Source: Lachnospiraceae bacterium (GTDB lineage Bacteria > Bacillota > Clostridia > Lachnospirales > Lachnospiraceae). Taken from it: a stretch of DNA of 38,627 nucleotides. The stretch is from the NCBI GenBank assembly GCA_017539565.1, contig JAFYCS010000089.1, positions 1 to 38,627 of the forward strand, in the 5' to 3' direction. Each line of letters begins with the position of its first letter. Within the stretch, counting starts at the first letter, position 1. Positions 17,391-35,458 of this stretch are shown in pieces. A model generated the notes under the pieces. It was not told the origin of the DNA. It made no database searches and saw only the letters and a program-made list of their open reading frames with translations. The position numbers and the translations under genes were made by a program.

Positions 17391-17406
17391 GTTAGCGAAT
17401 GCTAAT
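17391..17406. promoter_or_regulatory. DtxR-like box 1, ahead of feoB1
   Basis: GTTAGCGAATGCTAAT: half-sites TTAGC and GCTAA around four bases. It is one of five such palindromes in the window and lies 50 bases ahead of the feoB1 ATG. Confidence 0.72.
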
Positions 17407-17455
17407 TATAGTATATAGATTGCAATGATAATGTATCAAAAGGGAGGAGAAAAAC

Positions 17456-19453
17456 ATGAGGATCGCATTAACGGGTAATCCGAACAGCGGAAAAACAACA
17501 ATGTTCAATGCCCTGACCGGTCGCAGCGAAAAGATCGGTAACTGGGCGGGTGTAACAGTTGACAAGAAGGAAAGCCCAATCAAAAAGAATTACAATCAGA
17601 AAGGTACGGAACTGATAGCGGTAGACCTGCCGGGAGCATATTCCATGTCACCTTTCACATCAGAAGAGAGCATCACAAGCGGCTATGTAAAGCATGAGCA
17701 TCCCGATGCGATAATCAATATCGTTGATGCCAGCAACTTAAGCCGAAGCCTGTTCTTTACCACACAGCTTCTGGAACTGGGCATACCCGTTGTAGTGGCG
17801 CTTAACAAGAGCGATGTAAATGATAAGAAAGGTAATAAGATAGATATCAAGAAGCTTTCAGAGAAGCTGGGCTGCCCTGTAATAGAAACCGTATCTACAG
17901 AAGGAAAGGGCCTGGCTGAAGTGGTGAGCGCGGCTGTAGATCTTAAAGGGAAAGGACAGAAGGCACCTTATGATGAAGGAAATGTAGATCTTACAGATAA
18001 GGCTGCAGTTGAAGCTTCCGACCGCCTGCGTTTTGAATTTGTTAAAAAGATAGTGAAGGATGTTGAGGATCGTAAAGTACTCACGAAAGATAAGACAAAA
18101 GGAGATGCGATAGATAAGGTCCTGACACATCCCATATTCGGACTTGTTATTTTTGCAGGCATCATGTTCCTGGTATTCTATATTTCCCAGACTACCGTAG
18201 GTACCTGGGTGGCAGATATCCTGGCAGGTGCTATCGAGTCTTTCCAGGGCTGGGTAGGCGATCAGATGGCAGATGCAAATCCCCTGTTATATGCGCTTCT
18301 GGTAGATGGTATCATCGGCGGCGTGGGTGCAGTGGTAGGCTTCCTGCCTCTGGTAATGGTAATGTACTTCCTGATCGCGCTTTTAGAGGATTGCGGATAT
18401 ATGTCACGTGCGACTGTTGTGCTGGATCCCATCTTTAAACGCGTGGGACTTTCCGGTAAATCAGTTATCCCCATGGTCATCGGTACCGGCTGCGGTATTC
18501 CTGCGATCATGGCCTGCCGTACGATCCGTAATGAAAGAGAAAGAAGAGCAACTGCCATGCTGGCAACATTCATGCCCTGCGGTGCCAAGCTTCCCGTAAT
18601 CGCACTGTTTGCAGGTGCATTCTTCCCTGAAGCTACATGGGTAAGTTTTGTATGCTATATGCTGGGCATAGTGCTGATACTTCTCGGCGCGCTGCTTATC
18701 AAGGCTATCACCGGTATGAAATACAGAAAGAGTTTCTTTATAATAGAGCTTCCCGAATACAAAGCACCCAGCCTGCTCTTTGCACTTAAGTCCATGCTGG
18801 AGCGTGGTAAAGCATATATCGTTAAGGCAGGTACCGTTATCCTTGTCTGCAACACCATAGTCCAGATCATGCAGGCATTCAACTGGAATTTTGAAGAAGT
18901 TGAAGAAGGAATGGAGGATACTTCCATACTGGCATCCGTTGCAGGACCCTTCTCTGTACTGCTGGTACCGATCGTAGGTGTTGCAGCATGGCAGCTTGCA
19001 GCAGCAGCTATCACCGGCTTTATTGCTAAAGAAAACGTTGTAGGTACTATTGCAACGGTATATGCTATCACCAATCTTGTAGATCCCGAGGAAATGGAAC
19101 TTGTGGGAGAAGGTACTACGGTAGCAGCGATCATTGGAATCACCAAGGTTGCAGCACTTGCATATCTTATGTTCAATCTTTACACACCTCCCTGCTTTGC
19201 AGCACTTGGAGCAATGAATTCCGAGATGAAATCCGCCAAGTGGCTCTGGGGAGCTATAGGCCTTCAGCTGGCAACCGGCTTTACGGTAGGCTTCCTGGTA
19301 TATCAGTTCGGAACCCTCTTTACCACCGGCAGCTTTGGTGCAGGATTTGCAGGCGGTCTGATAGCCGTGCTTGTATTTGCAGCAGTGATCGCCGGAATCA
19401 TAATCTCTAATAATAAGAAGATGGTTGCAGAGTACCGGTTAAAGACGAACTGA
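17456..19453 (+). CDS. feoB: Ferrous iron transporter FeoB 1
   Basis: The 665-residue protein has an N-terminal G domain with G1 GNPNSGKTT, G3 DLPGAYS and G4 NKSD, a helical spacer, and a membrane part with the paired Gate motifs (IPMVIGTGCGIPAIMACRTIRNERERR and the second near AITGFIAKENVVGTIATVYAI). FeoB imports Fe(II) across the cytoplasmic membrane. The ATG follows GGGAGGAG. It is followed after 27 bases by the small Cys-rich protein usually found with clostridial FeoB. The protein is distinct from the second FeoB (23191-25203) and the two are not recent duplicates. Confidence 0.96.
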   Translation: MRIALTGNPNSGKTTMFNALTGRSEKIGNWAGVTVDKKESPIKKNYNQKGTELIAVDLPGAYSMSPFTSEESITSGYVKHEHPDAIINIVDASNLSRSLFFTTQLLELGIPVVVALNKSDVNDKKGNKIDIKKLSEKLGCPVIETVSTEGKGLAEVVSAAVDLKGKGQKAPYDEGNVDLTDKAAVEASDRLRFEFVKKIVKDVEDRKVLTKDKTKGDAIDKVLTHPIFGLVIFAGIMFLVFYISQTTVGTWVADILAGAIESFQGWVGDQMADANPLLYALLVDGIIGGVGAVVGFLPLVMVMYFLIALLEDCGYMSRATVVLDPIFKRVGLSGKSVIPMVIGTGCGIPAIMACRTIRNERERRATAMLATFMPCGAKLPVIALFAGAFFPEATWVSFVCYMLGIVLILLGALLIKAITGMKYRKSFFIIELPEYKAPSLLFALKSMLERGKAYIVKAGTVILVCNTIVQIMQAFNWNFEEVEEGMEDTSILASVAGPFSVLLVPIVGVAAWQLAAAAITGFIAKENVVGTIATVYAITNLVDPEEMELVGEGTTVAAIIGITKVAALAYLMFNLYTPPCFAALGAMNSEMKSAKWLWGAIGLQLATGFTVGFLVYQFGTLFTTGSFGAGFAGGLIAVLVFAAVIAGIIISNNKKMVAEYRLKTN

Positions 19454-19480
19454 CGAAGGGGCTTATATGAGGTAAATACT

Positions 19481-19654
19481 ATGGTAAATATAATCTCAGC
19501 CGCGATCATCATACTTCTCGTTGCAGGAGCCTCCTGCTACATATACAAAGAAAAGAAAAAGGGGCGCCACTGCATAGGGTGCCCCATGGCAGGAGAGTGT
19601 GCCAAGGCGAAGGCGGCACAATGTGCAGCAAAGAAAAGCAAAGCATGTCAATGA
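19481..19654 (+). CDS. FeoB-associated Cys-rich membrane protein (P12-like), 57 residues
   Basis: The product begins MVNIISAAIIILLVAGASCY, one membrane helix, then a short tail KEKKKGRHCIGCPMAGEC and further Cys residues (Cys19, 31, 34, 40, 48 and 56). Such tiny proteins commonly follow feoB in Clostridia. They are annotated as FeoB-associated Cys-rich proteins, with an unproved role in iron transfer or as a FeoC substitute. GAGG at 19469-19472 precedes the ATG. It lies 27 bases after feoB1 and 11 bases ahead of the HMA protein gene. It was found by reading the gap directly. Confidence 0.85.
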   Translation: MVNIISAAIIILLVAGASCYIYKEKKKGRHCIGCPMAGECAKAKAAQCAAKKSKACQ

Positions 19655-19665
19655 GCAGGTGATGT

Positions 19666-20034
19666 ATGGACCAGTTTACTTCAAATTGTGTGTTACTTGT
19701 TGTCATAGCAGGCATATTGTTCCTTGCGGTAAAGTATTCGATACCGCATTTTAAGGGCGAAGGATCCTGCTGCGGTGGCGGCAGCAAGATGAAACTTATA
19801 AAACCGGCAAAGCTGGATACAGTGATAGCTGAAAAAAACATATTGATAGAAGGTATGGTATGTGAACACTGTTCCGGCAGGATACAGAATGCGCTGAATT
19901 CTGTTGAAGGGATAAACGCAAAGGTTATAAGAAGTAAAGGAAAAGCAGTGGTTAAGCTTGGAAAACAGATCGGTGATGAAGAGTTGAAAAAGATCATTAC
20001 GGATCTGGGTTATAAGGTGACGGATATCAGCTGA
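19666..20034 (+). CDS. Membrane-anchored heavy-metal-associated (HMA) domain protein
   Basis: The 122-residue product has one N-terminal membrane helix (CVLLVVIAGILFLAVKY), a Gly/Cys patch (GSCCGGG), and a C-terminal HMA ferredoxin-like fold with the metal site GMVCEHCSGRI (Cys pair about 66 and 69). HMA domains bind soft metals such as Cu(I) or Zn(II) and pass them to P1B-type ATPases. It lies in the operon between feoB1 and the P-type ATPase, so it may be the metal donor for that pump. The Cys-Cys patch next to the helix may be a second binding site. Confidence 0.88.
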   Translation: MDQFTSNCVLLVVIAGILFLAVKYSIPHFKGEGSCCGGGSKMKLIKPAKLDTVIAEKNILIEGMVCEHCSGRIQNALNSVEGINAKVIRSKGKAVVKLGKQIGDEELKKIITDLGYKVTDIS

Positions 20035-20080
20035 GTGTATGTAAAAGCTGATAAATATAATTTATGAAAGGAGCTTTATC

Positions 20081-20341
20081 ATGAGATGGGGTAAATTATT
20101 GCTTTTTGCGGGTGGCGTTCTCTTCGGAACGGCAGGGATAAAAGTACTTTCAAGCAGAGATGCAAAGAAAGTATACACACATTGCACTGCAGCTGTTTTG
20201 CGTGCAAAGGATGCCATAGTGGATCAGGCTACTGTTCTTCAGGAAAACTGCAGTGACATCTATGAAGAGGCAAAGCAGATAAACGAAAAAAGAGCGGAAG
20301 CAGAAGATGACAGGATCATCGAGAGCACGGAAGAGGCTTAA
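20081..20341 (+). CDS. DUF6110-like small membrane-associated protein
   Basis: The 86-residue protein starts MRWGKLLLFAGGVLFGTAGIKVLSS, a short hydrophobic anchor, followed by DAKKVYTHCTAAVLRAKDAIVDQ and an acidic helical tail. This pattern matches the small family that I recall as DUF6110, found beside P-type ATPases in Clostridia. It has no metal motif beyond two Cys (THC and ENC). GAAAGGAGC precedes the ATG. It is 14 bases ahead of the P-type ATPase gene and probably assists that pump. Confidence 0.7.
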   Translation: MRWGKLLLFAGGVLFGTAGIKVLSSRDAKKVYTHCTAAVLRAKDAIVDQATVLQENCSDIYEEAKQINEKRAEAEDDRIIESTEEA

Positions 20342-20355
20342 GCGGAGTACTGAAA

Positions 20356-22437
20356 ATGAATGCTGTAATAAGACATGAGATACCGGGCAGGATGCGTGTT
20401 CATTTTGACAGGGCACGTTTTACGATGCGTGAGGCAGATACACTTCAGTATTATCTGCAGGAATCTGATGCTGTTCAAAAGGCTGTGGTATATGAAAGAA
20501 CTGCGGATGCAGTAATATACTACAGCTGTGAACGGGATGAGATCATCAGTATTATCCGCAGATACGCTCCGGAAAAGCTTGAGGTACCGGAGAGCTATTA
20601 TGAGTCGTCTTCGCGGGAACTTAATGCGGGATATCATGAAAAGATAGTTATGTCTGTTGTATGGCATTATACAAAGAAACTGCTCATTCCGCATTCGATA
20701 AGGACGTTACTGACATGTCTTAAGACAATGAAATATGTATGGCGCGGACTTAAGACCATACCCGAAAAGAAACTGAAAGTGGAATTGCTGGATGCAGTTG
20801 CCATAAGTGCATCCATGCTTGTAAAAGATCATAACACTGCATCATCAGTAATGTTCTTATTAGACATAGGTGATACGCTTGAAGAGTGGACCCACAAACA
20901 ATGTGTTGATGACCTGGCCAGACAGATGGCCTTAAATATCAGTAAGGTATGGAAGGTGCAGGACGGAGAGGAAATCCTGACTGATGCACAGCTTATAGAA
21001 ACAGGCGATAATGTTGTGATCCGTATGGGTAATATCATTCCTTTTGACGGAGTTGTGGTAAGCGGAGATGCGCTGGTAAATCAGGCGTCCATGACAGGGG
21101 AAGCGATCCCTGTAAGAAAAGAAGAAGGCGGCTGTGTTTTTGCAGGGACTGTTGTTGAAGAAGGAGAGATAACGATACGTGTCACTGCTGTGGGCGGAAG
21201 CGGAAGATATGATAAGATAGTCCGCATGATAGAAGAATCCGAGAAATTAAAATCTGCGCTTGAAAGCAAGGCGGAGGGACTGGCAGACAAGCTTGTTCCT
21301 TATACATTTGCAGGAGCAGCTTTAGCTTATCTGTTAAGCAGAAATGTAATGAAAGCAGTGTCGGTCCTTATGGTCGATTATTCCTGTGCGCTTAAACTGG
21401 CCATGCCTCTATCCGTGTTATCGGCAATAAGGGAAGCAGGTGATAACGGTATAACTGTTAAGGGCGGTAAGTTCCTGGAAGCTGTTTCGGAAGCGGAAGT
21501 AATAGTATTTGATAAAACGGGGACACTTACAAAAGCGCAGCCTGCAGTAAGGGATGTGATCTCTTTTAATGGTGAGAGTCCGGATGAGCTTTTGAGAGAG
21601 GCAGCATGTCTGGAAGAGCATTTTCCGCATTCCATTGCCAATGCAGTGGTTAAGGCAGCGGAGGATAAAGGTCTTAACCATGAAGAAATGCATACTAAAG
21701 TGGAATATGTTGTGGCACATGGTATCTCTTCGACGATAGACGGAAGCCGGGCATTGATCGGCAGTTATCATTTTATATTTGAGGATGAAGGGATAATCAT
21801 CGATGACAGCAGAAAAGAAAAATTTGAGGCTCTGCCGGATGAATACTCGCATCTATATTATGCAAAGGACGGAAAGCTTGCTGCGGTTATCCTGATAGAG
21901 GATCCCATACGTGAAGATGCATGTGATACGCTGTCTGCATTAAGACGGCATGGGATATCTCATATTGTCATGATGACAGGAGACAGCGAAAGAACGGCAC
22001 GTAAGATAGCCGGGATCGTCGGTGTGGACGAATACCATGCTGAGGTCCTTCCGGAAGATAAAGCAGGTTATGTAGAAGAGCAGAAACAAAAAGGATATCG
22101 TGTGATAATGATCGGTGACGGGATAAATGATTCACCGGCGTTATCGGCAGCCGACGCCGGTATTGCCATAAGTGAAGGTGCAGAGATCGCAAGGCAGATA
22201 GCTGATATAACTATAGCTGCGGATGAATTATCATCTATCGTGAGTCTAAAGGAATTAAGCGATCTGCTGATGAAGAGGATACGATTTAATTACAGGACCA
22301 TAGTAGGTTTCAATTCTGCGTTGATAGCACTTGGATTAATGGGTGTACTTACACCGGCGGCATCGGCACTTTTGCATAACGCTTCTACCATAGCACTGGG
22401 ACTTAACAGTACAACAAAGCTTCTTAAGGCAGAATAA
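20356..22437 (+). CDS. P1B-type metal ATPase with non-canonical SC motif
   Basis: The 693-residue pump has an N-terminal HMA-like fold without the CxxC (IRHEIPGRMRVHF), the actuator loop ASMTGEAIPV, the phosphorylated Asp in DKTGTLT, and MTGDSE and GDGINDSPALS. The membrane metal motif is unusual: where most P1B pumps have CPC or SPC, this has DYSCALKLAMPL, with Ser for Pro. In the nucleotide domain the usual HP pair is in the form EHFPHSIANAVV. The metal is not certain; since the genes ahead are feoA and feoB, iron or manganese export is plausible, as for FrvA- or CtpC-like pumps. Terminator follows at 22452. The operon is feoB1, Cys-rich protein, HMA protein, DUF6110-like protein, ATPase. 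Confidence 0.92.
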   Translation: MNAVIRHEIPGRMRVHFDRARFTMREADTLQYYLQESDAVQKAVVYERTADAVIYYSCERDEIISIIRRYAPEKLEVPESYYESSSRELNAGYHEKIVMSVVWHYTKKLLIPHSIRTLLTCLKTMKYVWRGLKTIPEKKLKVELLDAVAISASMLVKDHNTASSVMFLLDIGDTLEEWTHKQCVDDLARQMALNISKVWKVQDGEEILTDAQLIETGDNVVIRMGNIIPFDGVVVSGDALVNQASMTGEAIPVRKEEGGCVFAGTVVEEGEITIRVTAVGGSGRYDKIVRMIEESEKLKSALESKAEGLADKLVPYTFAGAALAYLLSRNVMKAVSVLMVDYSCALKLAMPLSVLSAIREAGDNGITVKGGKFLEAVSEAEVIVFDKTGTLTKAQPAVRDVISFNGESPDELLREAACLEEHFPHSIANAVVKAAEDKGLNHEEMHTKVEYVVAHGISSTIDGSRALIGSYHFIFEDEGIIIDDSRKEKFEALPDEYSHLYYAKDGKLAAVILIEDPIREDACDTLSALRRHGISHIVMMTGDSERTARKIAGIVGVDEYHAEVLPEDKAGYVEEQKQKGYRVIMIGDGINDSPALSAADAGIAISEGAEIARQIADITIAADELSSIVSLKELSDLLMKRIRFNYRTIVGFNSALIALGLMGVLTPAASALLHNASTIALGLNSTTKLLKAE

Positions 22438-22451
22438 GCCGGAAAGAGGCT

Positions 22452-22477: not shown

Positions 22478-22488
22478 CAGGGACGATA

Positions 22489-22504
22489 GTTAGCATATGC
22501 TAAT
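22489..22504. promoter_or_regulatory. DtxR-like box 2, ahead of dtxR2-feoA2-feoB2
   Basis: GTTAGCATATGCTAAT contains a perfect 14-base palindrome (TTAGCATATGCTAA, 22490-22503). It lies 20 bases ahead of the ATG of the second DtxR-type regulator, which fits autoregulation. A standard promoter is not obvious here. Confidence 0.75.
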
Positions 22505-22523: not shown

Positions 22524-22922
22524 ATGAATGAATCAGCTGAAAACTATATTAAAACTATTTATGCATTAAAGAAGAAGCTTAAAAGTGTGCGGTCTATCGA
22601 TATAGCTAACGAAATGGGATTTTCACGTGCGAGCGTTTCAGCTGCCGTGGCTAACCTTAAAAAGAAAGACCTGATCATAGTAAAGAATAACGGTGCGATA
22701 GAATTTACTGTACAGGGAGAGAAGATAGCGGGGGATATATATGAAAGACACGCGACCTTAAGCGGTTTTCTTATGGATGTGGCTGGCGTAGATGAAAAAA
22801 CAGCTAAGGAAGATGCCTGCAGGATAGAGCATTTTATCAGTCCGTCAACGCTTGAAGGGATAAAGAAGTTTATAAAAGGGCATCATAAAGATGAGCTGTC
22901 CGGATCCTTCAATGAGAGCTGA
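22524..22922 (+). CDS. DtxR/MntR-family metal-dependent regulator 2
   Basis: The 132-residue protein is a paralog of the one at 16581 (shared VDEKTA.EDACRIEH and IYERH motifs), without the SH3-like domain. The recognition helix is FSRASVSAAVANL. Metal ligands His76, Cys99, Glu102 and His103 are kept, but the position that is Met9 in regulator 1 is Asn7 (AENYIKTIY), so metal preference may differ. A DtxR-like box lies 20 bases ahead of its ATG. It heads the second Feo operon, 44 bases before feoA2. The ribosome site (GGGTGATCAGAG) is weak, which would keep the level low. Confidence 0.9.
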   Translation: MNESAENYIKTIYALKKKLKSVRSIDIANEMGFSRASVSAAVANLKKKDLIIVKNNGAIEFTVQGEKIAGDIYERHATLSGFLMDVAGVDEKTAKEDACRIEHFISPSTLEGIKKFIKGHHKDELSGSFNES

Positions 22923-22966: not shown

Positions 22967-23194
22967 ATGAGTTTAAGTGAAGTAAAAGAAAGCGGGGAGG
23001 CAGTAGTGTCTTCGATCGAAGGTGATACCAGGTTTGTAAGCCGTATCACTTCGATAGGACTTACCCCGGGATGCAGGGTAAGCGTTATCAAGAATGATAA
23101 GAATCGTCCTATGCTGGTGTACTCCAGAGATACGATGATAGCACTTAACAGGAAAGAATGCGAAGGTGTTAGAGTTGAGGAGGTATCGGCATGA
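22967..23194 (+). CDS. feoA: FeoA-like SH3 protein 2
   Basis: The 75-residue product has the FeoA pattern MSLSEVKESGEAVVSSI, then RFVSRITSIGLTPGCRVSVI and the end strand MIALNRKECEGVRVEEV. GGGAGGGA precedes the ATG. The stop overlaps the feoB2 start by 4 bases (ATGA, 23191-23194), so the two are tightly coupled, unlike feoA1 and feoB1. Confidence 0.92.
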   Translation: MSLSEVKESGEAVVSSIEGDTRFVSRITSIGLTPGCRVSVIKNDKNRPMLVYSRDTMIALNRKECEGVRVEEVSA

Positions 23195-25203
23195 ATTCAG
23201 CAACTATAGCTCTTCTGGGACAGCCCAATTCAGGCAAGTCTACATTATTCAATGCATTAACGGGCCTCCGCCAGCATGTAGGTAACTGGCCGGGAAAAAC
23301 CGTCGAGAAAAAGGAAGGTTCTTTTTTTCATAAAGGGAAGGAATACCTGGTGGCGGATCTGCCGGGATCATACAGTCTTTCTGCTAATTCGGATGAAGAG
23401 GTGATAACAAGGGATTTTATCGCATCGGGAAAGGCGGATGTGGTATGCATACTTGCGGACAGCTCGCAGCTGCAGAGAAGTCTTTTCATGCTGGCCGATT
23501 ATGCCGGGATCGATGTGCCTTGCTTTTTGCTTCTTAATATGGCCGATGTGGCTAAGGACCAGGGTAAACAGATAGATGCAAAAGCTATTTCACAGAAACT
23601 CGGAATCCCTGTCATTCCTTTTTCGGCTACGGATGTAAAATCCTATGATGGTTTTTATAAAACACTGGAAGAAGCTATAAAAAAAGGATCAAAGCTGGAT
23701 GTTGACAGCCTGAAAAAGCAGTATGACGGTATAAAGGGATATCAGGAGATCTTAAGTCTTATTCCCGAAAATACCGTTCCGGGCTATTCTTCCATGTGGC
23801 TTGCAGTGAAGCTTATGGAGAATGACAAGGTAGTATGTGAAAAGCTTAAATCTGCATTGGACAGTGAAACGTACAAAAAGCTTATCAGTGCTGCAAAGGA
23901 AACGCAGGGGGCTGTTGCAACAGGAGGCTGTAAATTTGCATGGATAGATGATGTGCTCTCAGGTGCTGTAAACAGCAGCGGTAAAAAGGTAAGTTTAAGT
24001 AAGCTTGATAAGATATATACCAGCAGGATATGGGGCAAGCCGGCGGTCATACTTACTGTTCTTCTCGGACTGATCGGTTCATTTATTCCTGCGATCCCTC
24101 TTATGATAGTAGGATCTCTGATCCTGATGCTTAAAGTTCCTGTGGCGTCAGCACTTGCGGCTGTCGGTGCTCCGGAAGTCCTGACACTGGTCATCAATGA
24201 TATTATCATTCAGTCATTCTCATATATCTTTAAGATGCTTGGTTTTGTGTTTGGTGTGACTCTTGTTTTCGGGCTTTTGGAAGAAGTGGGAGTAATGGCC
24301 AGGATCTCATACGTGTTTGATAACACCATGGGAAAGCTGGGACTTCAGGGTAAATCTGTGATGCCCTTCCTTATCAGCTTCGGCTGCACTATGGGTGGGG
24401 CTGCAGGCGCAAGAGTCATAGATAACTGGGGGCAGAAAGTACTTACGATAGCTCTTGCCTGGGCAGTGCCCTGCGGAGCAGCCTGGGCTACGATTCCCAT
24501 GCTATCGACTATCTTTTTCGGCCCCGGAGCAGTGGGCGTGATAGTAGCGATATTGCTGACCATGCTCGTGCATATGTGGATCACGGCTAAGGTGTTCGGA
24601 GGACATCTGGTTAAGAAAGAAGACCGTTACGGTATGATAATGGAGCTGCCGCCTTATCATAAACCCAAGTGGGGAGCATTATTCAGATACGTGTTCGGCC
24701 GTACAAAGGAAACCTTCTTCCGTGTAGCAAAGGTTGTGTTGCTGGTATGCAGTATATTCTGGCTGCTGAGCTATTCACCTTCCGGAAACGGCGGCATTCT
24801 TTATGCAATAGGTGTGGCGATAGAGCCGGTAACAAAGATATTTGGTATGCCCTGGCAGCTGTTTCTTTCTTATATAGCATCAGCAGTTGGTAAGGAAGGT
24901 GCTATAGGAGTTATCAGTGCGCTTTATAACGGCGGTTCATACTCGGCAGCGTTTACAGAGGCTATGAGTGGCGCAGCTGCTGCAACCAACTTAAACGAGA
25001 TACTTCTTGCTAATGTCAGCAGGCCTGAAGCACTGGCATTCATTTTCGCCATGACCTTTAATATGCCCTGTGTTGTTGCACTGGCAGCTACATATCAGGA
25101 AACGCATTCTGCTAAGTGGACCGGATTGATAGTACTTTACTATACTGCCATATCCCTGCTGCTGGCATTCCTTGCATATCATATAGGTATGCTTATCTGG
25201 TAG
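23191..25203 (+). CDS. feoB: Ferrous iron transporter FeoB 2
   Basis: The 670-residue protein has a G domain (G1 GQPNSGKST, G3 DLPGSYS, G4 NMAD) and a membrane part with the two Gate regions (SFGCTMGGAAGARVIDNWGQKVL and SAVGKEGAIGVISALYNGG). In Gate 1 Cys is kept (FGCTMGG). It differs from FeoB 1 in the linker (residues about 165-270, longer and charged) and in the Gate motifs, so the two copies are of different origin. It is preceded by feoA2 and followed by a FeoC-like gene after 46 bases. Confidence 0.95.
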   Translation: MNSATIALLGQPNSGKSTLFNALTGLRQHVGNWPGKTVEKKEGSFFHKGKEYLVADLPGSYSLSANSDEEVITRDFIASGKADVVCILADSSQLQRSLFMLADYAGIDVPCFLLLNMADVAKDQGKQIDAKAISQKLGIPVIPFSATDVKSYDGFYKTLEEAIKKGSKLDVDSLKKQYDGIKGYQEILSLIPENTVPGYSSMWLAVKLMENDKVVCEKLKSALDSETYKKLISAAKETQGAVATGGCKFAWIDDVLSGAVNSSGKKVSLSKLDKIYTSRIWGKPAVILTVLLGLIGSFIPAIPLMIVGSLILMLKVPVASALAAVGAPEVLTLVINDIIIQSFSYIFKMLGFVFGVTLVFGLLEEVGVMARISYVFDNTMGKLGLQGKSVMPFLISFGCTMGGAAGARVIDNWGQKVLTIALAWAVPCGAAWATIPMLSTIFFGPGAVGVIVAILLTMLVHMWITAKVFGGHLVKKEDRYGMIMELPPYHKPKWGALFRYVFGRTKETFFRVAKVVLLVCSIFWLLSYSPSGNGGILYAIGVAIEPVTKIFGMPWQLFLSYIASAVGKEGAIGVISALYNGGSYSAAFTEAMSGAAAATNLNEILLANVSRPEALAFIFAMTFNMPCVVALAATYQETHSAKWTGLIVLYYTAISLLLAFLAYHIGMLIW

Positions 25204-25249: not shown

Positions 25250-25519
25250 ATGGAAAAACTACTGTCTCTGCTTAAGGACGGCCATGCCAGAACCCTGGAA
25301 ATGCTGGCGTATGAGCTTAACACCGATGTGGATGATATAAAGCGGAAGCTGGAATATCTGGAAATGGTAGGCGCTGTCAAAAAAGTTTCATTCAATGCAT
25401 GCAGCGGTAATAAGTGCTCGGAGTGCGCCCTTCATTCGCACTCCGACACCACACCCTGCAAAGGCTGCCTTCCCGATGGCGGCTTTAAAAACATGGGTGA
25501 AATGTGGGAAGTCATATAG
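25250..25519 (+). CDS. FeoC-like winged-helix protein with Cys cluster
   Basis: The 89-residue protein has a winged helix (MEKLLSLLKDGHARTLEMLAYELNTDVDDIKRKL, split by turns) followed by ACSGNKCSEC and TPCKGC, five or six Cys that could hold an iron-sulfur cluster. FeoC proteins bind to FeoB or act as iron-responsive regulators. GAGG (25240-25243) precedes the ATG. It is the last gene of the second Feo operon, and its stop is followed by a bidirectional terminator. Confidence 0.82.
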   Translation: MEKLLSLLKDGHARTLEMLAYELNTDVDDIKRKLEYLEMVGAVKKVSFNACSGNKCSECALHSHSDTTPCKGCLPDGGFKNMGEMWEVI

Positions 25520-25527
25520 ATCTGCCG

Positions 25528-25567
25528 GGATGGGGTACTGACTATTTACAGGCCCCATCCTTCATTT
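25528..25567. terminator. Bidirectional-type hairpin between feoC-like and MATE genes
   Basis: GGATGGGG (25528-25535) pairs with CCCCATCC (25553-25560) around a 17-base loop; TTCATTTTT follows on the plus strand. The loop holds the stop codon of the MATE gene. Confidence 0.65.
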
Positions 25568-26922: not shown

Positions 26923-29403
26923 TCAGCACGCGCTTACGATACCTTTATCCCCGTCAACACGTATCATATCGCCGTCCTTGAATTTTGATGTGGCGAAGCC
27001 TACACCGAGCACGGCAGGAATGCCGAATTCCCTGGCTACTATGGCGGCGTGGCTTAAGGATGATCCGGTATCGGCCACAACACCTCCTGCCAGTCTGAAA
27101 AGAGGTGTCCATTCGGGATCTGTCAGTTCGCAGACCAGGATATCCCCGCTTTTCATTTTGTAAAATTCAGAAGGAGAATGTATAACGCAAACATTGCCGA
27201 CAACAACTCCGTTGCTTCCGCTGATACCCTTAAGAGTATCACCGTCGGAATCAAAGACTAGAAGCTTTGATGCATCCCAGACTTTCTGGGAAAGGCTATG
27301 CTTGTTATCCCTGCGGAGTATTTTTTCTTTATCGGTATCATAGAGCTTTTCGCGTGAACAGACATCAATAAGTTCTTTGTAAAACAGATTGGATATACCG
27401 TGAATATAGTCATCATTGCCGGTCAGTAATATGCTCAGGCGTGTAAGTATCCTTCGGATATAGTAGAAGAGTGTTTCCCAGAGATACTGGCTTTCCTCAC
27501 GGACCAGATGAAAAGTCCTGAAGGCCTCAATACGTTTTTTGAGTTTGGGAAACTTTGATCCGTATATATTCTTTAAACGGTCCAGCATGTCCTCATAACT
27601 CAGCTGATCGGCTGTGACCGGACTATCATTTGAATTAAGAAGAGGCTTTATAATATTAAGTAACCTGTCGGGATCTTCTATCAGGGTTTTGGCTTCTACG
27701 CAGTAGCAATTGAAATCTGATTTAAAGCCGTTTTTCTTCATAAAGTCTTCTGTAATTTCGATCAGTGAAGGATAAGCGGTTGATATGGATGCATAGTTAC
27801 GACCTGAAAGGATAGCGGATGTAAGCTCATTATCTGCTGAGATATGTTTTGCCAATTCTGCGACTTCTTTTGTTATCACACTGGTTTTGTTATCAAGGCC
27901 GTTATACAGATCATAGTTTGTATATTTTTTATCTATCTTTTGGACTGCTTTTGTAAGATCTCCGGACAGTGCGGAAGGGAAGAGTGCATACTTAAAACGG
28001 TCATAGCACAGCCTTCCGAGAAGCTCATAAGACTTTTCCAGTAATGATGAACATTCTCTTATCGTGAGTGAGTCATATTTTATATCGGCATAGTCTGAAA
28101 GCTCCTTTTCATATCCCTGCATGAATTTTTTACATACTTCGGCACAGTGTTCAAAATCTTTAACTTCTTTTATAACAGAAGGCAGTTTAAAGATATTCCG
28201 GCTTATGCCCTTATGAGGGCTTGGCAGGGTCATTATACCGTCATCATCCATCTGGGGATCGCTCGTTAGTATAAGGCCGGCTTCTTCAAAGATTTTTGAT
28301 TTCTGATGATTGATCTGCATGATGAGATCGTAGTCAAGAGGCCGGTATGCATAGGGCATCTTCTCCAACTGGAAAGCCATATTGCTTTTTGCGGCGCCGG
28401 AAATCCGGCTGTCTGCAATGTAAGACTTAATAAGGTCGGTATCATCGTCCGGGACATTATTATTAATCGTGGTTATAGGTCTTGCCTGCAGGATGTATAC
28501 TGTCCCGCCGCAGATCGCCCATTCTATATCCATGGGACGGGCGTAATGTTTTTCAATGCGAGCGCCTTCCGTACATAACAGCTTTATCTCGCCTTCGGAT
28601 AAAGAAGGTTTATCCTGCAGATCCGGATCAACGGGGATCTCTTTCGTGGCGTTTTCATCATATATTATCTGCGTCATTTTTGAACCGCAGTCGTAGGATA
28701 TTATATTACCTTTTTTATCACACAGGATTGAGTCGGCAGTCACCCGCCCGCTGACCACGCTTTCCCCCAGGCCGAAACTGGAATTGATCCGCATGGTATC
28801 AGGTTTTGTATCTATGGGATCTTCTGTAAAAAGAACACCGGCTTTTTCCGATTCAACCATTAACTGGATAACAACAGCAAGCGCTACTTCATTCTGATCA
28901 AAGCCCAGATTGTTACGATAGATCGTTGCACGGTTACCCCATAATGAGGCGTAACACTTTCTGACAGCCTCAGTCACATCTTCAAGACCGTGAATGCCAA
29001 GATAGGTTTCCTGTTGTCCGGCAAAACTTGCTTCAGCCAGGTCTTCGGCAGTGGCAGAGGATCTGACGGCGACCCTGGTGGCAGAGTTGCTGCAGAGCTT
29101 TTGGTATTTATCATTAAGTTCAGTCATCACTGCATCGGGGATCTTTCCGCTTAAGATGTATTCGCGCAGTCTGGCAGAAGCAGCCGACAGTCTGCTTTCA
29201 TCGTTGCCGGCTTCAGACAGGATCTCCCTGAATATTTCATTGTATCCGTTTTCCTTTATGAAAAGCCTGTACGCATCTGCCGTGATCACAAAACCTCCTG
29301 GGATATTCAGGCCTGCAGCTGTCATTTCACCCAGGTTGGCGCCTTTTCCGCCTGCCACGGGAATATCATTTTTGCAGATTTCATTAAAACTTTTGATATA
29401 CAT
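26923..29403 (-). CDS. Rifampin phosphotransferase-like / PEP-utilising enzyme
   Basis: The 826-residue protein has an N-terminal pyruvate-phosphate-dikinase ATP-grasp domain (GGKGANLGEM, AVRSSATAEDLAEASFAGQ, DIEWAI...ILQARPIT, about 1-320), a large helical middle (about 330-720), and a C-terminal swivelling phosphohistidine domain (DTGSSLSHAAIVAREFGIPAV). The PEP/pyruvate TIM barrel of PEP synthase is absent. This order and length match rifampin phosphotransferase (RPH, about 865), in which the His carries phosphate from ATP to a bound drug. A PEP synthase name is therefore doubtful. The middle domain sets the substrate and cannot be read here. Start ATG lies one base after the tetR stop, and MATE follows in the same operon. 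Confidence 0.85.
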   Translation of the reverse strand: MYIKSFNEICKNDIPVAGGKGANLGEMTAAGLNIPGGFVITADAYRLFIKENGYNEIFREILSEAGNDESRLSAASARLREYILSGKIPDAVMTELNDKYQKLCSNSATRVAVRSSATAEDLAEASFAGQQETYLGIHGLEDVTEAVRKCYASLWGNRATIYRNNLGFDQNEVALAVVIQLMVESEKAGVLFTEDPIDTKPDTMRINSSFGLGESVVSGRVTADSILCDKKGNIISYDCGSKMTQIIYDENATKEIPVDPDLQDKPSLSEGEIKLLCTEGARIEKHYARPMDIEWAICGGTVYILQARPITTINNNVPDDDTDLIKSYIADSRISGAAKSNMAFQLEKMPYAYRPLDYDLIMQINHQKSKIFEEAGLILTSDPQMDDDGIMTLPSPHKGISRNIFKLPSVIKEVKDFEHCAEVCKKFMQGYEKELSDYADIKYDSLTIRECSSLLEKSYELLGRLCYDRFKYALFPSALSGDLTKAVQKIDKKYTNYDLYNGLDNKTSVITKEVAELAKHISADNELTSAILSGRNYASISTAYPSLIEITEDFMKKNGFKSDFNCYCVEAKTLIEDPDRLLNIIKPLLNSNDSPVTADQLSYEDMLDRLKNIYGSKFPKLKKRIEAFRTFHLVREESQYLWETLFYYIRRILTRLSILLTGNDDYIHGISNLFYKELIDVCSREKLYDTDKEKILRRDNKHSLSQKVWDASKLLVFDSDGDTLKGISGSNGVVVGNVCVIHSPSEFYKMKSGDILVCELTDPEWTPLFRLAGGVVADTGSSLSHAAIVAREFGIPAVLGVGFATSKFKDGDMIRVDGDKGIVSAC

Positions 29404-29404: not shown

Positions 29405-30010
29405 TCAGTGCTCCTTTACTTTTATATACAGATGAAGACCGGCAGAAATGTAACTGTTTATCAGATCTTCAAAATATGCAGCGTCCAATTTTGGAGAGTT
29501 GGAAAGCAGTATTGAAACAGAAATGATAACATTGGTAACACCGGTTATATCCATTGATTCTATGGTATCTGCTTTGATCCAATGGTCACGGATATCCTCC
29601 AGATAACCGGAGTATAAAGCGAGAAACCTGTTGCTTTTATCATTGGATGTATTCTGCAGAAAAGTCATGCCTTCCCGATAGATAGGTCTGGTATCAAGCT
29701 TATATTTCATATCAGTGAACCATGAACTGATCTGGGATGACAGAAAGCCTATAGGATCGTCATAGGAATCTTTGATCAGAGGGCGCATCATATCAAGCTT
29801 TTGGGAAGTACGATATTTCATGATATCAAGTATCAGACTGTCCTTATCGGGCCAGAAATTATAAAAGCCGCCGGGGGATATGCCGGTTCTTTTCGCAAGC
29901 TCACGTATATTAAGTGTTTTAGCCCCGTTTTCGTGATAAAGATCAAGAGCAGCTTCCATAATACGCACCTTTATATCGGCTCTTTCATCGGAAGTGTAAG
30001 CTTTACCCAT
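29405..30010 (-). CDS. TetR-family regulator of the phosphotransferase-MATE operon
   Basis: The 201-residue protein has an N-terminal helix-turn-helix (LNIRELAKRTGISPGGFYNFWPDKDSLI, about residues 33-60, two short helices) and a helical C-terminal domain that would bind a ligand. The ATG at 30010 follows CAGGAGGCC. It is the first gene of its operon, one base ahead of the phosphotransferase-like gene. A perfect 14-bp inverted repeat lies between its promoter and the gene, the likely autorepressor site. A DtxR-like box overlaps its promoter. Confidence 0.9.
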   Translation of the reverse strand: MGKAYTSDERADIKVRIMEAALDLYHENGAKTLNIRELAKRTGISPGGFYNFWPDKDSLILDIMKYRTSQKLDMMRPLIKDSYDDPIGFLSSQISSWFTDMKYKLDTRPIYREGMTFLQNTSNDKSNRFLALYSGYLEDIRDHWIKADTIESMDITGVTNVIISVSILLSNSPKLDAAYFEDLINSYISAGLHLYIKVKEH

Positions 30011-30039: not shown

Positions 30040-30073
30040 TAGCTGTGAACAATTACCTGATTGTTCACAGCTA
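30040..30073. promoter_or_regulatory. 14-bp inverted repeat, probable TetR operator
   Basis: TAGCTGTGAACAAT (30040-30053) and its exact complement (30060-30073) are separated by six bases. It lies in the tetR leader, just below the -10 box at 30075-30080. Confidence 0.8.
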
Positions 30074-30074: not shown

Positions 30075-30103
30075 AAGTTAGCACACACTAACGACTTTGT
30101 CAA
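30075..30103 (-). promoter_or_regulatory. Promoter of the tetR-phosphotransferase-MATE operon
   Basis: The minus strand reads TTGACA (30098-30103) and TAACTT (30075-30080), 17 bases apart. The DtxR-like box 30077-30092 fills the spacer and overlaps the -10. Confidence 0.72.
30077..30092. promoter_or_regulatory. DtxR-like box 3, within the tetR promoter
   Basis: GTTAGCACACACTAAC: outer half-sites GTTAG and CTAAC are perfect, but the inner G/C pair is kept only on one side. It lies between the -35 and -10 of the tetR promoter. Confidence 0.65.
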
Positions 30104-30133: not shown

Positions 30134-30162
30134 TTGACAAATAACTGGAGGTAGTATATACT
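30134..30162 (+). promoter_or_regulatory. Promoter of enolase
   Basis: TTGACA (30134-30139) and TATACT (30157-30162) are 17 bases apart. DtxR-like box 4 begins eight bases below. Confidence 0.9.
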
Positions 30163-30170
30163 AACCTACA

Positions 30171-30186
30171 GTTAGCGAGAGCTAAC
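30171..30186. promoter_or_regulatory. DtxR-like box 4, at the enolase transcription start
   Basis: GTTAGCGAGAGCTAAC is a perfect 6-4-6 inverted repeat that begins eight bases after the -10 box, the same distance as at xylA. A bound repressor would block the start of transcription. Confidence 0.82.
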
Positions 30187-30193
30187 TGGATAG

Positions 30194-31573
<1,380 letters not shown>

Positions 31574-31603
31574 TCCATATACCTCTTTTCATAGTGTGTC
31601 CGG

Positions 31604-31640
31604 CGCCGCTTCTCCCCAAGAAGCGGCGTTGACTCGTTTA
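31604..31640 (+). terminator. Hairpin after enolase, probable terminator
   Basis: CGCCGCTTCT (31604-31613) pairs with AGAAGCGGCG (31619-31628) around a five-base loop, followed by TTGACTCGTTT. The stem is strong but the T tract is interrupted. Confidence 0.65.
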
Positions 31641-31662
31641 TATGGCTGAAGGAGAAATAAAG

Positions 31663-32946: not shown

Positions 32947-32952
32947 AATATA

Positions 32953-33735
32953 ATGACAGGTGAATTATTGTCGGGACTTCTTATACCTTTTATAGGAACT
33001 TCGCTTGGATCGGCCTGTGTGCTGTTTATGAAGAAAGAGCTGAACACCATGGTGCAGCGTGCACTGACCGGTTTTGCGGCAGGAGTCATGGTGGCAGCAT
33101 CGGTCTGGAGTCTGATAATCCCGGCGATGGAGCAATCGGAAGGAATGGGAAAATTCGCTTTTGTACCGGCAGTGATCGGTTTCTGGCTGGGTATCCTGTT
33201 CCTTCTTTTTTTGGATTCGGTGATACCGCATCTGCATATGCATGCAGACAAGGCGGAAGGACCTGCTTCGAAATTGAAGAGGACCACGATGATGGTACTG
33301 GCTGTGACCCTGCATAATCTTCCTGAAGGCATGGCTGTGGGCGTGGTATATGCAGGACTGTTATCTGGCAAGGCATCTGTTACCAGCGGCGGAGCATTGG
33401 CGCTGGCGCTTGGTATTGCTATACAAAACTTCCCTGAAGGAGCTATCATATCGATGCCTCTGCATGCCGAGGGAAAGAGCAGGCTGGGAGCCTTTTGGGA
33501 TGGCGTGTTATCCGGAGCTGTGGAGCCGGTAGGCGCATTGCTGACTATCTTTGCAGCTGGCTTCTTTCTGCCGTCTATGCCGTATCTGCTAAGCTTTGCG
33601 GCAGGAGCCATGATGTATGTTGTGGTAGAAGAACTGATCCCCGAAATGTCGGAAGGCGAGCATTCCAATATAGGGGTACTTATGTTTGCTCTGGGCTTTA
33701 CGCTGATGATGGCGCTGGATGTGGCGCTGGGATGA
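32953..33735 (+). CDS. ZIP-family divalent metal transporter (GufA/ZupT type)
   Basis: The 260-residue protein has about eight membrane helices and the two metal-binding helices of ZIP transporters: HNLPEGMAVG (helix 4) and QNFPEGAIISM (helix 5). The loop after helix 3 is HLHMHADKAEGP, a His-rich metal loop. It would import Zn(II) or other divalent metals. It starts 7 bases after the GNAT-methyltransferase gene with GGAAGGTGA as binding site, so the two are cotranscribed. Confidence 0.93.
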   Translation: MTGELLSGLLIPFIGTSLGSACVLFMKKELNTMVQRALTGFAAGVMVAASVWSLIIPAMEQSEGMGKFAFVPAVIGFWLGILFLLFLDSVIPHLHMHADKAEGPASKLKRTTMMVLAVTLHNLPEGMAVGVVYAGLLSGKASVTSGGALALALGIAIQNFPEGAIISMPLHAEGKSRLGAFWDGVLSGAVEPVGALLTIFAAGFFLPSMPYLLSFAAGAMMYVVVEELIPEMSEGEHSNIGVLMFALGFTLMMALDVALG

Positions 33736-33780
33736 CCATGAAATAGCTCGGGGCAGGTATAGTGTATAAGATGATCAGGT

Positions 33781-33820
33781 ATTACGGACGGAATGATCCG
33801 ACCGTAATGCCGGTTTTTTT
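33781..33820 (+). terminator. Terminator after the ZIP gene
   Basis: ATTACGG (33781-33787) pairs with CCGTAAT (33802-33808), and a run of seven T follows at 33814-33820. The remaining 100 bases before the next gene hold only the promoter at 33839. Confidence 0.75.
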
Positions 33821-33838
33821 GTCAGAGGCTGGATTTCA

Positions 33839-33847
33839 TGGTATAAT
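33839..33847 (+). promoter_or_regulatory. Extended -10 promoter of the PAS-GGDEF gene
   Basis: CATGGTATAAT (TG-G-TATAAT, TATAAT 33842-33847), the same 11 bases as ahead of the other GGDEF gene (6201-6211). No clear -35. Confidence 0.55.
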
Positions 33848-33934
33848 GCAAAAGTGTTGGGAAACAGGGCAGGATGCTTATTTCAGGATAAAGCATGGCG
33901 CAGGTGATATGGGCGAAAGAGGCGGTAACATCTT

Positions 33935-35359
33935 ATGAAGATGACGGTAGAATTATTTGACAGTATAATAAATACTTCGCAGGACTGTGTGTTCTGGAAG
34001 GATAAGGAACGGCGTTTTTTGGGAGTAAATCAGGCATTCCTGGATTATTACGGATTTGAATCTGCGGATGTGCTTATCGGCAAGACCGATGAGGATATGG
34101 GATGGCACTCGGATCCGGAACCTTTTAAACAGGATGAATTGCGCGTTCTTTCAGGAAGAAGCACATATAAGGTTCAGGGAAAATGCATGATCCGGGGTGA
34201 GGAGAGGGATATTATTGCATCCAAACGTCCGCTTTATGATGGTGACAGCATCGTAGGACTCGTAGGCAGCTTTGTGGATATAACCGATGTGTTAAGGCGC
34301 AGAAACGGGCTGGATAGCGCACAGATAGTATATACGATAGATAAGCTCAGAAAGTTCAGTTATTTCGACAGGATAATAGACGAGATCAGCCTGGACGAGA
34401 TACTGGATCCGCTGACAGGAGTTCTTTCACGCAGTTATTCGATGAAGTTTGTCCATCATCTTATAGCGGAGCAGATCCCGTTTACATTTACAATGATAGA
34501 CCTGGATAATTTCAAATATATCAATGACAGCTTCGGACATACGGCAGGAGATGAAGTTCTTAAATTCGTTTCGAAGAGTATCGCAGAGGTGGTGGAAGAT
34601 TCCGGACTTGTAGGACGCTTCGGCGGTGATGAACTCCTGCTGGTAGATATCAGGAATATCGAACAGGATAAGAAGGAATCATTCTTTGAAAAACTGTATA
34701 CGCAATCGGGAGCGTTAAGGACAAGGATGGATTTTGATACAGGTTCATCACTGATAACAGCTACTTCAGGTTCTGCATCCTACCCTGCTGATGCGGAAAT
34801 TTTTGATGAGCTATTCGGCATCGTTGATAAGATGCTTTATCTCGGGAAGGGAAGAGGACGTGACTGCTATACGGTATATAATGCATCTGCACATAAAGAT
34901 ATTGAAATAGTGCATATTTCAAGAAAAGGGATGTTCCGTGAGATGCAGAACATCAAGGCGATGATGAACATGAAGAATGGATTACGGGACAAGCTGACAG
35001 CGGTGACGCCGGAACTCAGGGATCTGCTGCAGATCAAAGATCTGTATTATGTTGAGGCAGACGGACGGATGAAATCTGTTATGGAGCCATCATTTGACGG
35101 AGATGCAGCTGATATTTCGGATCTTATGAAGGAGGATATATTTACCGACAGGACAATGGATCGTGTTGAGAAAGATTCCCCTGTATTCTATCGTACATTA
35201 AAGGAAAAAGGACTGGAATCTGCCCTTATCATGCGATTTGGAAGCAACGCTTCAGTCCCCCGTTATCTTGTGTGCGCAGTCGAGCGCACCTTCCGCATAT
35301 GGCAGGATAACGAATGTGCGATCCTTTATTATCTCACCGGATTACTGGAACAGGAATAA
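33935..35359 (+). CDS. PAS-GGDEF diguanylate cyclase
   Basis: The 474-residue cytoplasmic protein has an N-terminal PAS domain (about 5-120; DCVFWKDKERRFLGVNQAF and SFVDITDV), a GGDEF domain (about 157-310; DPLTGVLSRSYSM, TMIDLDNFKYINDSFGH, and GRFGGDEL as active site at 230-234) and a C-terminal domain of about 150 residues that looks GAF-like. It should make cyclic di-GMP in response to a small ligand or redox signal. The site is GGDEL, not GGDEF, which is still compatible with activity. No RxxD inhibitory site is seen. It is a single gene between ZIP and xylA. Confidence 0.9.
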   Translation: MKMTVELFDSIINTSQDCVFWKDKERRFLGVNQAFLDYYGFESADVLIGKTDEDMGWHSDPEPFKQDELRVLSGRSTYKVQGKCMIRGEERDIIASKRPLYDGDSIVGLVGSFVDITDVLRRRNGLDSAQIVYTIDKLRKFSYFDRIIDEISLDEILDPLTGVLSRSYSMKFVHHLIAEQIPFTFTMIDLDNFKYINDSFGHTAGDEVLKFVSKSIAEVVEDSGLVGRFGGDELLLVDIRNIEQDKKESFFEKLYTQSGALRTRMDFDTGSSLITATSGSASYPADAEIFDELFGIVDKMLYLGKGRGRDCYTVYNASAHKDIEIVHISRKGMFREMQNIKAMMNMKNGLRDKLTAVTPELRDLLQIKDLYYVEADGRMKSVMEPSFDGDAADISDLMKEDIFTDRTMDRVEKDSPVFYRTLKEKGLESALIMRFGSNASVPRYLVCAVERTFRIWQDNECAILYYLTGLLEQE

Positions 35360-35405
35360 ACAGATAATAGTATATCTTTGGTAATCATTACATGCAAAAT
35401 TTGAG

Positions 35406-35434
35406 TTGACAGAGTTCGGCATGTGTGATATTTT
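35406..35434 (+). promoter_or_regulatory. Promoter of xylose isomerase
   Basis: TTGACA (35406-35411) and TATTTT (35429-35434) are 17 bases apart. DtxR-like box 5 begins eight bases below. Confidence 0.82.
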
Positions 35435-35442
35435 ATTATAGG

Positions 35443-35458
35443 GTTAGCAAGTGCTAAC
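35443..35458. promoter_or_regulatory. DtxR-like box 5, at the xylA transcription start
   Basis: GTTAGCAAGTGCTAAC is a perfect 6-4-6 inverted repeat, placed exactly as box 4 at enolase. Confidence 0.82.

Follow-up and report, generated by a model that had tools for sequence, protein, structure and literature searches.

A predicted DtxR-type, probably Fe(II)-responsive operator links iron uptake genes with enolase and xylose isomerase in a Lachnospiraceae genome

Palindromes at iron uptake, enolase and xylose isomerase genes

The stretch of DNA analyzed here, referred to as the window, comprises the 38,627 nucleotides of contig JAFYCS010000089.1 from a Lachnospiraceae bacterium (GenBank assembly GCA_017539565.1), and harbors palindromes with the core GTTAG-N6-CTAAC upstream of ferrous iron uptake genes, an enolase gene (eno) and a xylose isomerase gene (xylA). 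A sequence-only reading of this DNA had placed five such palindromes at 17391, 22489, 30077, 30171 and 35443, all outside coding regions, and had proposed that they join two iron uptake operons with enolase, xylose isomerase and a tetR-phosphotransferase-MATE operon. All five were recovered at these coordinates upon rescanning: those at 30171 and 35443 are exact, those at 17391, 22489 and 30077 present one mismatch each, the perfect 14-base core described at 22490 is present, and none of the five falls inside a coding region of the window according to our own gene calls.

The first iron uptake locus opens with dtxR1 (16581..16958, plus strand), encoding a DtxR-family regulator of 125 amino acids (aa) with two domains (PF01325 and PF02742, above cut-off). 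Downstream of it lie feoA1 (17134..17346, plus), a 70-aa open reading frame (ORF) assigned because it resembles the FeoA-like proteins of relatives and precedes feoB1, and the ferrous iron transporter gene feoB1 itself (17456..19453, plus; PF02421, PF07670, PF07664), with the predicted operator GTTAGCGAATGCTAAT (17391..17406; palindromes carry no strand) upstream. An additional site with two mismatches that the first list did not contain, GTAAGCGGTGACTAAC (17070..17085), follows the -10 of the feoA1 promoter (TTGACT-N16-TATTAT, rated good) at a distance of 6 bases, a position that makes it a probable sixth operator. The second locus consists of dtxR2 (22524..22922, plus; 132 aa; PF01325, PF02742), preceded by the predicted operator GTTAGCATATGCTAAT (22489..22504), followed by feoA2 (22967..23194, plus; a 75-aa ORF assigned by likeness to FeoA-like proteins and its place before feoB2), feoB2 (23191..25203, plus; PF02421, PF07670) and a feoC-like gene (25250..25519, plus; PF09012, 21.6 bits against a cut-off of 21).

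The eno gene (30272..31573, plus; TIGR01060, 663 bits against a cut-off of 300) is the sole enolase gene found in the genome (a single PF00113 match). Its predicted operator, GTTAGCGAGAGCTAAC (30171..30186), lies 8 bases past the eno -10, and a second, imperfect palindrome with three mismatches (30150..30165), likewise absent from the first list, covers the -10 box itself, 21 bp upstream of 30171; tandem pairs 20-21 bp apart also occur in L088, L090 and G022. The longest eno ORF opens 25 codons further upstream, at 30197 within the leader, and 32 of 80 relatives align from query residue 26; the true start is probably 30272 rather than 30197. The single-copy xylA (35514..36839, plus; TIGR02630, 668 bits against 533) has its predicted operator, GTTAGCAAGTGCTAAC (35443..35458), 8 bases past the xylA -10, and the remaining predicted operator, GTTAGCACACACTAAC (30077..30092), begins in the spacer of a divergent tetR promoter (TTGACA-N17-TAACTT on the minus strand, read by eye) and reaches into its -10. 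Allowing up to three mismatches, the window contains 12 sites against 13.2 expected from shuffles, and the three-mismatch motif was therefore dropped as a signal; because there is no excess at that level, the signal rests on sites with zero or one mismatch.

Distribution of the palindrome in the genome and genus

The whole assembly (G000, the genome of the window; 3,368,556 bases in 120 contigs) contains eight instances of GTTAGC-N4-GCTAAC, four exact and four with one mismatch, five of which are on the 38.6-kb contig of the window. Two of the others lie on contig C47, between an FtsX-like permease gene and an ATP-binding cassette (ABC) ATPase gene, and one on C115, flanked by a tetR-like gene and an ABC transporter gene. 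With up to two mismatches, 34 sites were found genome-wide against 23 for the control. Among 35 genomes of the genus, the exact pattern yields 38 sites in 20 genomes, against 7 for a reversed control (6 of them from one genome), and is absent from the other 15. Random placement, including placement in coding regions, had been named as an outcome that would speak against an operator; only one of the 38 exact genus sites lies inside an ORF of at least 150 aa. Ten genomes reached via named loci, which include Ruminococcus flavefaciens MC2020, R. albus KH2T6, Pseudobutyrivibrio xylanivorans DSM 14809, Butyrivibrio hungatei NK4A153 and Lachnospiraceae AC2028, present 126 exact GTTAG-N6-CTAAC instances against 18 for the control. 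The sites, their spacing, position and conservation, and the gene neighbors described here and below are computed directly from these genomes.

Predicted operators upstream of enolase and other genes in relatives

Enolase loci in named genomes were taken as the best 80 of at least 584 relatives. GTTAG-N6-CTAAC is present within 350 bp upstream of eno at 46 of these 80 loci, as opposed to 1, 1, 0 and 0 for the spacing controls N4, N5, N7 and N8, and 0 for each of three unrelated half-sites; a looser form of the site occurs at four more loci, and in L156 and L164 the site precedes a run of genes with eno among them. A promoter was recognized at 33 of the 50 eno sites, and at all 33 the palindrome begins 6-8 bases past the -10, in a search that allowed it to start anywhere from -2 to 14 relative to that box. 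Fixed spacing, position at the promoter and avoidance of coding regions, as expected of an operator, are hence all observed, with 17 of the 50 eno sites lacking a recognized promoter. Within the genus, a close eno (at least 85% identity) occurs in 14 genomes, seven of which present the strict site upstream of it; in G011 the site is shorter by one base, and in G001 and G024 it precedes an eno-containing run. A divergent enolase (53-58% identity) is encoded a few kb from the phosphoglycerate mutase iPGM, on the same contig, in G007, G008, G025, G026, G033 and G034, and neither these six genomes nor G009 (73%) have a site upstream of eno. In a tree of eno sequences (91 of 97 rows placed, 13 of them from the genus) the genus rows require 10 changes against a shuffled mean of 12.4, in a tree whose bootstrap is not settled, and this scatter fits transfer between lineages.

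A de novo enumeration of dyads was carried out on loci L067-L217, which were chosen by protein matches (eno, DtxR-family, enolase pieces), with a few of them overlapping regions already known to bear sites; a first run on all loci (feo 11/32) was set aside, as some of those loci had been picked by motif. Upstream regions of 300 bp, with near-duplicates removed, were searched for all 5-base inverted dyads with spacings of 0-12, using shuffles as control; upstream regions of neighboring genes may share one site. GTTAG-N6-CTAAC is the top dyad upstream of the flavodoxin gene (fld) or DUF3793 (10 of 11 non-redundant regions), eno (39/76), ABC pairs (7/30) and xylA (2/2), and the core TTAGC-N4-GCTAA is the top dyad upstream of dtxR (8/32), compared with maxima of 1-3 in shuffled regions.

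Gene order points in the same direction, runs being termed operon-like from order only. The arrangement is site-fld-eno in G001, site-feoA-feoB2-eno-DUF6110-P1B in G024, sites-fld-DUF3793-eno in Eubacterium MSJ-21 and site-DUF3793-fld-dPGM-eno-dtxR in RUG12602, where dPGM is the metal-free phosphoglycerate mutase and xylA is convergent behind its own site or sites. The eno gene adjoins dtxR in G002, G014 and G016, and lies near feo, DUF6110/P1B or ZIP genes in G000, G011, G019, G022 and G028. In AC2028, all nine exact sites fall within about 20 kb of one contig, where fld and xylA have two sites in common; the same segment also bears ZIP, eno and, opposite it, dPGM, as well as another dPGM copy, feoAB and two dtxR genes. 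In B. hungatei NK4A153, a single contig carries 13 of the 17 sites, and on it lie eno, fld and DUF3793 together with feoAB, DUF6110/P1B and ABC pairs. The xylA gene is found in seven of the 35 genus genomes, in one copy each. The five with at least 95% identity and readable upstream sequence (G000, G014, G016, G019, G024) all present the site, that of G022 being cut by a contig end and unreadable, and the site also occurs at xylA in L141, RUG12602 and AC2028. The shared dyad and the operon-like runs thus bear out the proposal that feo, eno and xylA belong to one metal-type regulon. DUF3793 often adjoins flavodoxin under the same operator (L059, L140, L156, L164, L251), and these gene neighborhoods suggest that it may have a role in iron sparing.

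The enolase leader

Many eno transcripts carry GAAUAAAUCAU directly past the operator, followed by a long hairpin. The leader in the window (30186..30237, plus) comprises a GAUAGAUCAU element and a hairpin with CCUAUG in its loop. Relative to mononucleotide shuffles, hairpin z scores range between -2.7 and -6.7 in 26 leaders that were chosen and trimmed to the hairpin. Stems vary in sequence between leaders (examples include L103, L111, L124, L141, L158 and L162-L164), and loops follow clades, with CCUAUG in the Butyrivibrio group and this genus, GCUACC in Pseudobutyrivibrio and Eubacterium, and GUGCGA in Ruminococcus. The element follows the site in 34 of 314 site orientations, of which 31 are at eno, 2 at eno-containing fld runs and 1 elsewhere; in G014, G016 and G019 the leader is retained and the palindrome lost. 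At L091 and L093-L096 the promoter region differs and has neither operator nor leader. At gathering score, Rfam models identify one tRNA only in the window and no riboswitch in the eno leader, and with just two weak, chance-level matches in L118 5700-6100 (E 0.12 and 2.3) a known riboswitch was rejected. RNAalifold returned no structure on a mixed leader alignment (A1), which we attribute to unequal stem lengths. A narrower leader model (R1) gave four matches in the 35 genomes, all at eno transcripts and two of them training sequences, and missed the leader of the window itself.

DtxR-family regulators

The genome of the window contains three DtxR-family genes and no match to the Fur family (PF01475), and Fur was dropped as a candidate binder of the palindrome on that ground. 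The two DtxR-family proteins that the sequence-only reading had noted nearby both match PF01325 and PF02742 above Pfam cut-offs. When aligned to DtxR (1g3y), DtxR1 retains all of Met10, Cys102, Glu105 and His106, the ligand set of the Fe type, while DtxR2 departs from this set, with Asn at the Met10 position and Cys102, Glu105 and His106 kept; of the ancillary site residues His79, Glu83 and His98, only His79 is kept in either protein. Selectivity work on DtxR and MntR indicates that Met and Cys ligands point to iron. At 125 and 132 aa, both proteins lack the third, SH3-like domain of DtxR/IdeR sensu stricto (about 225 aa), and their scores against the NCBIfam MntR equivalog, 94.7 and 83.7 bits, are below its cut-off of 153. 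The third dtxR, on C105, has no better site than one with two mismatches, ending 6 bases upstream of the first possible start.

The DtxR/IdeR operator is a 19-bp TTAGGTTAGSCTAACCTAA, and the core of the Escherichia coli MntR box is TAGC-N4-GCTA. The system described here resembles DtxR/IdeR in its family domains, the TTAG-N6-CTAA spacing, its iron uptake targets and the Met10, Cys102, Glu105 and His106 of DtxR1, and differs in its shorter, two-domain proteins, in presenting a single GTTAG-N6-CTAAC palindrome instead of the 19-bp double site, and in a regulon that takes in enolase and xylose isomerase. With MntR it shares the two-domain size and a similar core palindrome, but the window proteins have Cys where E. 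coli MntR has Glu and fall below the MntR equivalog cut-offs. From these likenesses we infer that a DtxR-family protein binds the palindrome, with DtxR1, DtxR2 and the third DtxR indistinguishable as candidates.

Loss of enolase and retention of phosphoglycerate mutase

Full-length enolase is absent from 13 of the 35 genus genomes, ten of which have no PF00113 match and three a C-terminal piece only; among genomes of good quality (at least 90% complete and at most 5% contaminated), the count is 8 of 23. The three pieces (G006:C66:17840-17971, G018:C19:135510-135755 and G031:C8:26130-26270) span 51-84 residues and are internal to their contigs, more than 7 kb from a contig end. The piece in G006 sits between dtxR and an exact operator, and that of G031 also adjoins dtxR. 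A further piece, in G032, is cut by a contig end and 100% identical to the window eno, and this genome was not counted as lacking enolase. Phosphoglycerate mutase is retained in all 13 genomes, with two partial matches (G005, G031), and 2-phosphoglycerate should therefore still be made in them without a known enolase to use it, which suggests another consumer of this metabolite. Of the two mutases, iPGM is found in 29 of the 35 genomes and dPGM in five of the six lacking it, with no co-occurrence; only G017 (72% complete) has neither. Within the genus, dPGM was dropped as a regulon member, since the gene appears in three of five maps and has no adjoining site in any of the three. Two separate enolase genes occur in none of the 35 genomes; in four, a single divergent gene shows up as two stretches. 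Pyruvate kinase is also patchy, with matches in 15 of the 35 genomes and none in G000.

Missing or truncated enolase has been left unexplained in rumen and clostridial bacteria (PMC2914790, PMC6912079, PMC6118326, PMC11187502, PMC11026938, PMC3558957), and, going by the text available from these reports, enolase-less glycolysis in rumen bacteria has been unsolved since 2010 (PMC2914790) and is still so in PMC11187502 and PMC11026938. Patchy and truncated eno genes in related Lachnospiraceae, including rumen Butyrivibrio, match what is seen here (PMC2914790, PMC6912079, PMC6118326); unlike the present case, the portions of these accounts at hand do not mention iron control of eno, and the word "iron" is absent from PMC6912079. 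A search of the open-access literature found no publication that reports control of eno or xylA by DtxR or by iron in these bacteria.

A putative iron-responsive regulon and its alternatives

Considering these results together, we regard it as quite probable that a DtxR-type repressor, itself probably Fe(II)-responsive, governs an iron-starvation regulon with enolase and xylose isomerase among its members. GTTAG-N6-CTAAC would be the operator of a DtxR-family metalloregulator, most likely one responsive to Fe(II): in the presence of iron, the metal-loaded repressor would sit on or just past the -10 and block its target promoters, and as iron falls it would leave and the target genes would be made. 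A repressor is expected because the sites overlap the transcription start or the promoter itself. The regulon would comprise feoAB, ABC importer- or exporter-like pairs and dtxR itself, with flavodoxin and DUF3793 in relatives. Its carbon enzymes would be enolase and xylose isomerase, joined in some relatives by the metal-free phosphoglycerate mutase. Sites upstream of both flavodoxin and ferrous uptake genes, which mark an iron-starvation regulon, are present, the feo part only just above shuffles. It is from this set of genes and from the regulator alignments that we infer the binding protein, the metal, the direction of repression and an iron-sparing purpose; the sequence-only reading had instead seen the logic in the need of Eno and XylA for divalent metals, and iron sparing, with flavodoxin and ferrous uptake, is the likelier of the two. 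A gut bacterium without a Fur-family match would hence place central sugar enzymes directly under a predicted DtxR-type operator.

Several results weigh against this reading. Both G033 (97% complete; exact site at feoA) and G034 (72% complete; exact site away from feoA) have no PF02742 match and do have Fur-family genes. For 16 of the 38 exact genus sites, no adjoining gene is labeled iron, eno or xylA, and the neighbor labels ABC and DUF3793 themselves derive from the site neighbors. The dyad, although top for feo, is there barely above shuffles (3 of 17 regions against a maximum of 2), equals the shuffle maximum for ZIP (2 of 11) and, for DUF6110/P1B (2 of 20), is tied with others and not above shuffles. 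No site in any accepted form exists at 28 of the 80 eno loci (L133 offering only 56 bases upstream), among them a clade of five, L091 and L093-L096, whose eno is 94-96% identical to that of the window, nor is there a full site at four of the 14 close genus eno genes (G014, G016, G019, G017); the G029 xylA (78% identity) has none either, leaving five of six readable genus cases with the site. Enolase activity was observed in cultures of eno-positive Butyrivibrio and Pseudobutyrivibrio in the part of PMC2914790 available, and repression must therefore be incomplete there, and the accessible portion of the Hungate1000 study reports a different link, with eno adjoining L-lactate dehydrogenase in seven strains (PMC6118326).

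An extension of the iron-responsive regulon would go further and hold that an iron-dependent enzyme, such as an Fe-S or Fe(II) hydro-lyase, normally makes phosphoenolpyruvate (PEP) from 2-phosphoglycerate, and that Eno, which needs no iron, stands in for it mainly when cells are starved of iron, much as flavodoxin takes the place of ferredoxin, so that strains rarely short of iron can lose eno. We hold this to be doubtful, though the loss of full-length enolase in 13 of 35 genomes that all keep phosphoglycerate mutase, the linkage of eno to flavodoxin and feo, the G006 remnant between dtxR and an exact operator, and the missing-enolase puzzle in print (PMC2914790, PMC6912079, PMC6118326, PMC11187502, PMC3558957, as far as their available text goes) all speak for it. 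The genomes concerned are mostly drafts, five of the ten without a match not being of good quality (among them G004, G005, G020 and G021, less than 90% complete), and two of the 13 mutase matches, in G005 and G031, are partial. We know of no iron-dependent enolase, and no candidate enzyme was found in a search that lacked whole-genome gene profiling. In the sections available, the Hungate1000 comparison of enolase-positive and enolase-negative Butyrivibrio gave no substantial insight (PMC6118326), and enolase activity in B. proteoclasticus B316 was very low, not zero (PMC2914790). The broader form of this idea, in which an undiscovered iron-dependent enolase is the normal one in rumen clostridia and Eno is a horizontally mobile iron-starvation backup released with flavodoxin and sometimes dPGM and xylA, is speculative and on balance unlikely. 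If true, an iron-dependent xylose isomerase may exist too, and eno loss in many Butyrivibrio and relatives would be the loss of a backup rather than of glycolysis. The placement of eno in an iron-type regulon would lead to a specific idea, an iron-dependent, possibly oxygen-sensitive 2-phosphoglycerate dehydratase, and would make the published puzzle testable. Switching of glycolytic isozymes (GpmA, FdaB) in metal-starved Staphylococcus, as far as described in the accessible text of PMC9973326, is alike in that an enzyme avoiding the scarce metal keeps a glycolytic step running; it differs because here the enzyme is the usual enolase, the replaced one is hypothetical and the proposed regulator is of DtxR type with a direct operator.

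Alternatively, Eno may be an ordinary, always expressed enzyme that the iron repressor only tunes, so that lower glycolysis rises at low iron, when pyruvate:ferredoxin oxidoreductase and other Fe-S enzymes are scarce, with eno-less relatives using a bypass. This is a possible account, held tentatively: none of the 35 genomes has two separate enolase genes, eno-positive cultures show enolase activity (PMC2914790, in part), and dPGM adjoins sites or joins the operon in AC2028 and RUG12602, but it leaves unexplained both the loss of eno with mutase retained and an operator at the transcription start, and, by the available text of the reviews PMC11187502 and PMC11026938, B. proteoclasticus does not encode the complete methylglyoxal bypass. 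A different metal is rather unlikely. An MntR-like, Mn(II)-sensing regulator, with metal-free dPGM replacing Mn-dependent iPGM and more eno and xylA offsetting lost Mn, would agree with the best NCBIfam matches of both regulators, which are MntR models even if far below cut-off, and with the metal-free glycolytic isozymes reported under Mn starvation in Staphylococcus (PMC9973326, in part); the Cys at the DtxR Cys102 position, which is Glu in E. coli MntR, flavodoxin and FeoAB, which indicate iron, and the genus dPGM without an adjoining site in those three maps argue otherwise. Binding by a TetR-family protein is very unlikely. A tetR-like gene does adjoin the palindrome at 30077 in the window, the one on C115 and those at ABC pairs in relatives, but by our labels the TetRs next to sites are in many cases no more than about 25-38% alike, and tetR is missing beside many of the sites at feo, fld, dtxR and eno. 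Hardly to be expected is a 5' RNA hairpin in place of a DNA operator: at eno the palindrome starts at about +1 and would pair into a stem of 5-6 bp at the 5' end of the mRNA, yet the middle letters vary freely at a constant spacing, and the reading was downgraded because the 30077 palindrome lies inside the tetR promoter, spanning spacer into -10, and would not be transcribed from that promoter.

Other features of the window

Between the two iron uptake loci lie genes for a small HMA-domain protein (19666..20034, plus; PF00403), a DUF6110 protein (20081..20341, plus; PF19605) and, adjoining it, a P1B-type heavy-metal ATPase (20356..22437, plus; PF00122, PF00702, TIGR01525). The latter two resemble fezA and fezB by position only, and a ferrosome role would be putative. 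In Clostridioides difficile the ferrosome genes fezA/fezB are under Fur (PMC12574912, in the part available), an iron regulator over iron-handling genes as proposed here; the present genome differs in having no Fur-family match, a DtxR-type palindrome, and eno and xylA in addition. A ZIP metal transporter gene (32953..33735, plus; PF02535) lies between eno and xylA, and relatives of it with a site occur in L104 and AC2028.

The divergent run on the minus strand consists of tetR (29405..30010; PF00440), a gene for a PEP-utilizing protein resembling PEP synthase and rifampin phosphotransferase (26923..29403) and, last, a MATE transporter gene (25542..26909; PF01554). The site on the tetR side of this proposed arm stands, in an arrangement known from G000 alone; the "phosphotransferase" label does not, as the PEP-utilizing protein is below every NCBIfam cut-off, and an assignment as rifampin phosphotransferase was rejected (365 bits against 999 for NF041857). 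A perfect inverted repeat of 14 bp located immediately upstream of tetR, TAGCTGTGAACAAT..ATTGTTCACAGCTA (30040-30073), is a candidate TetR operator or leader hairpin.

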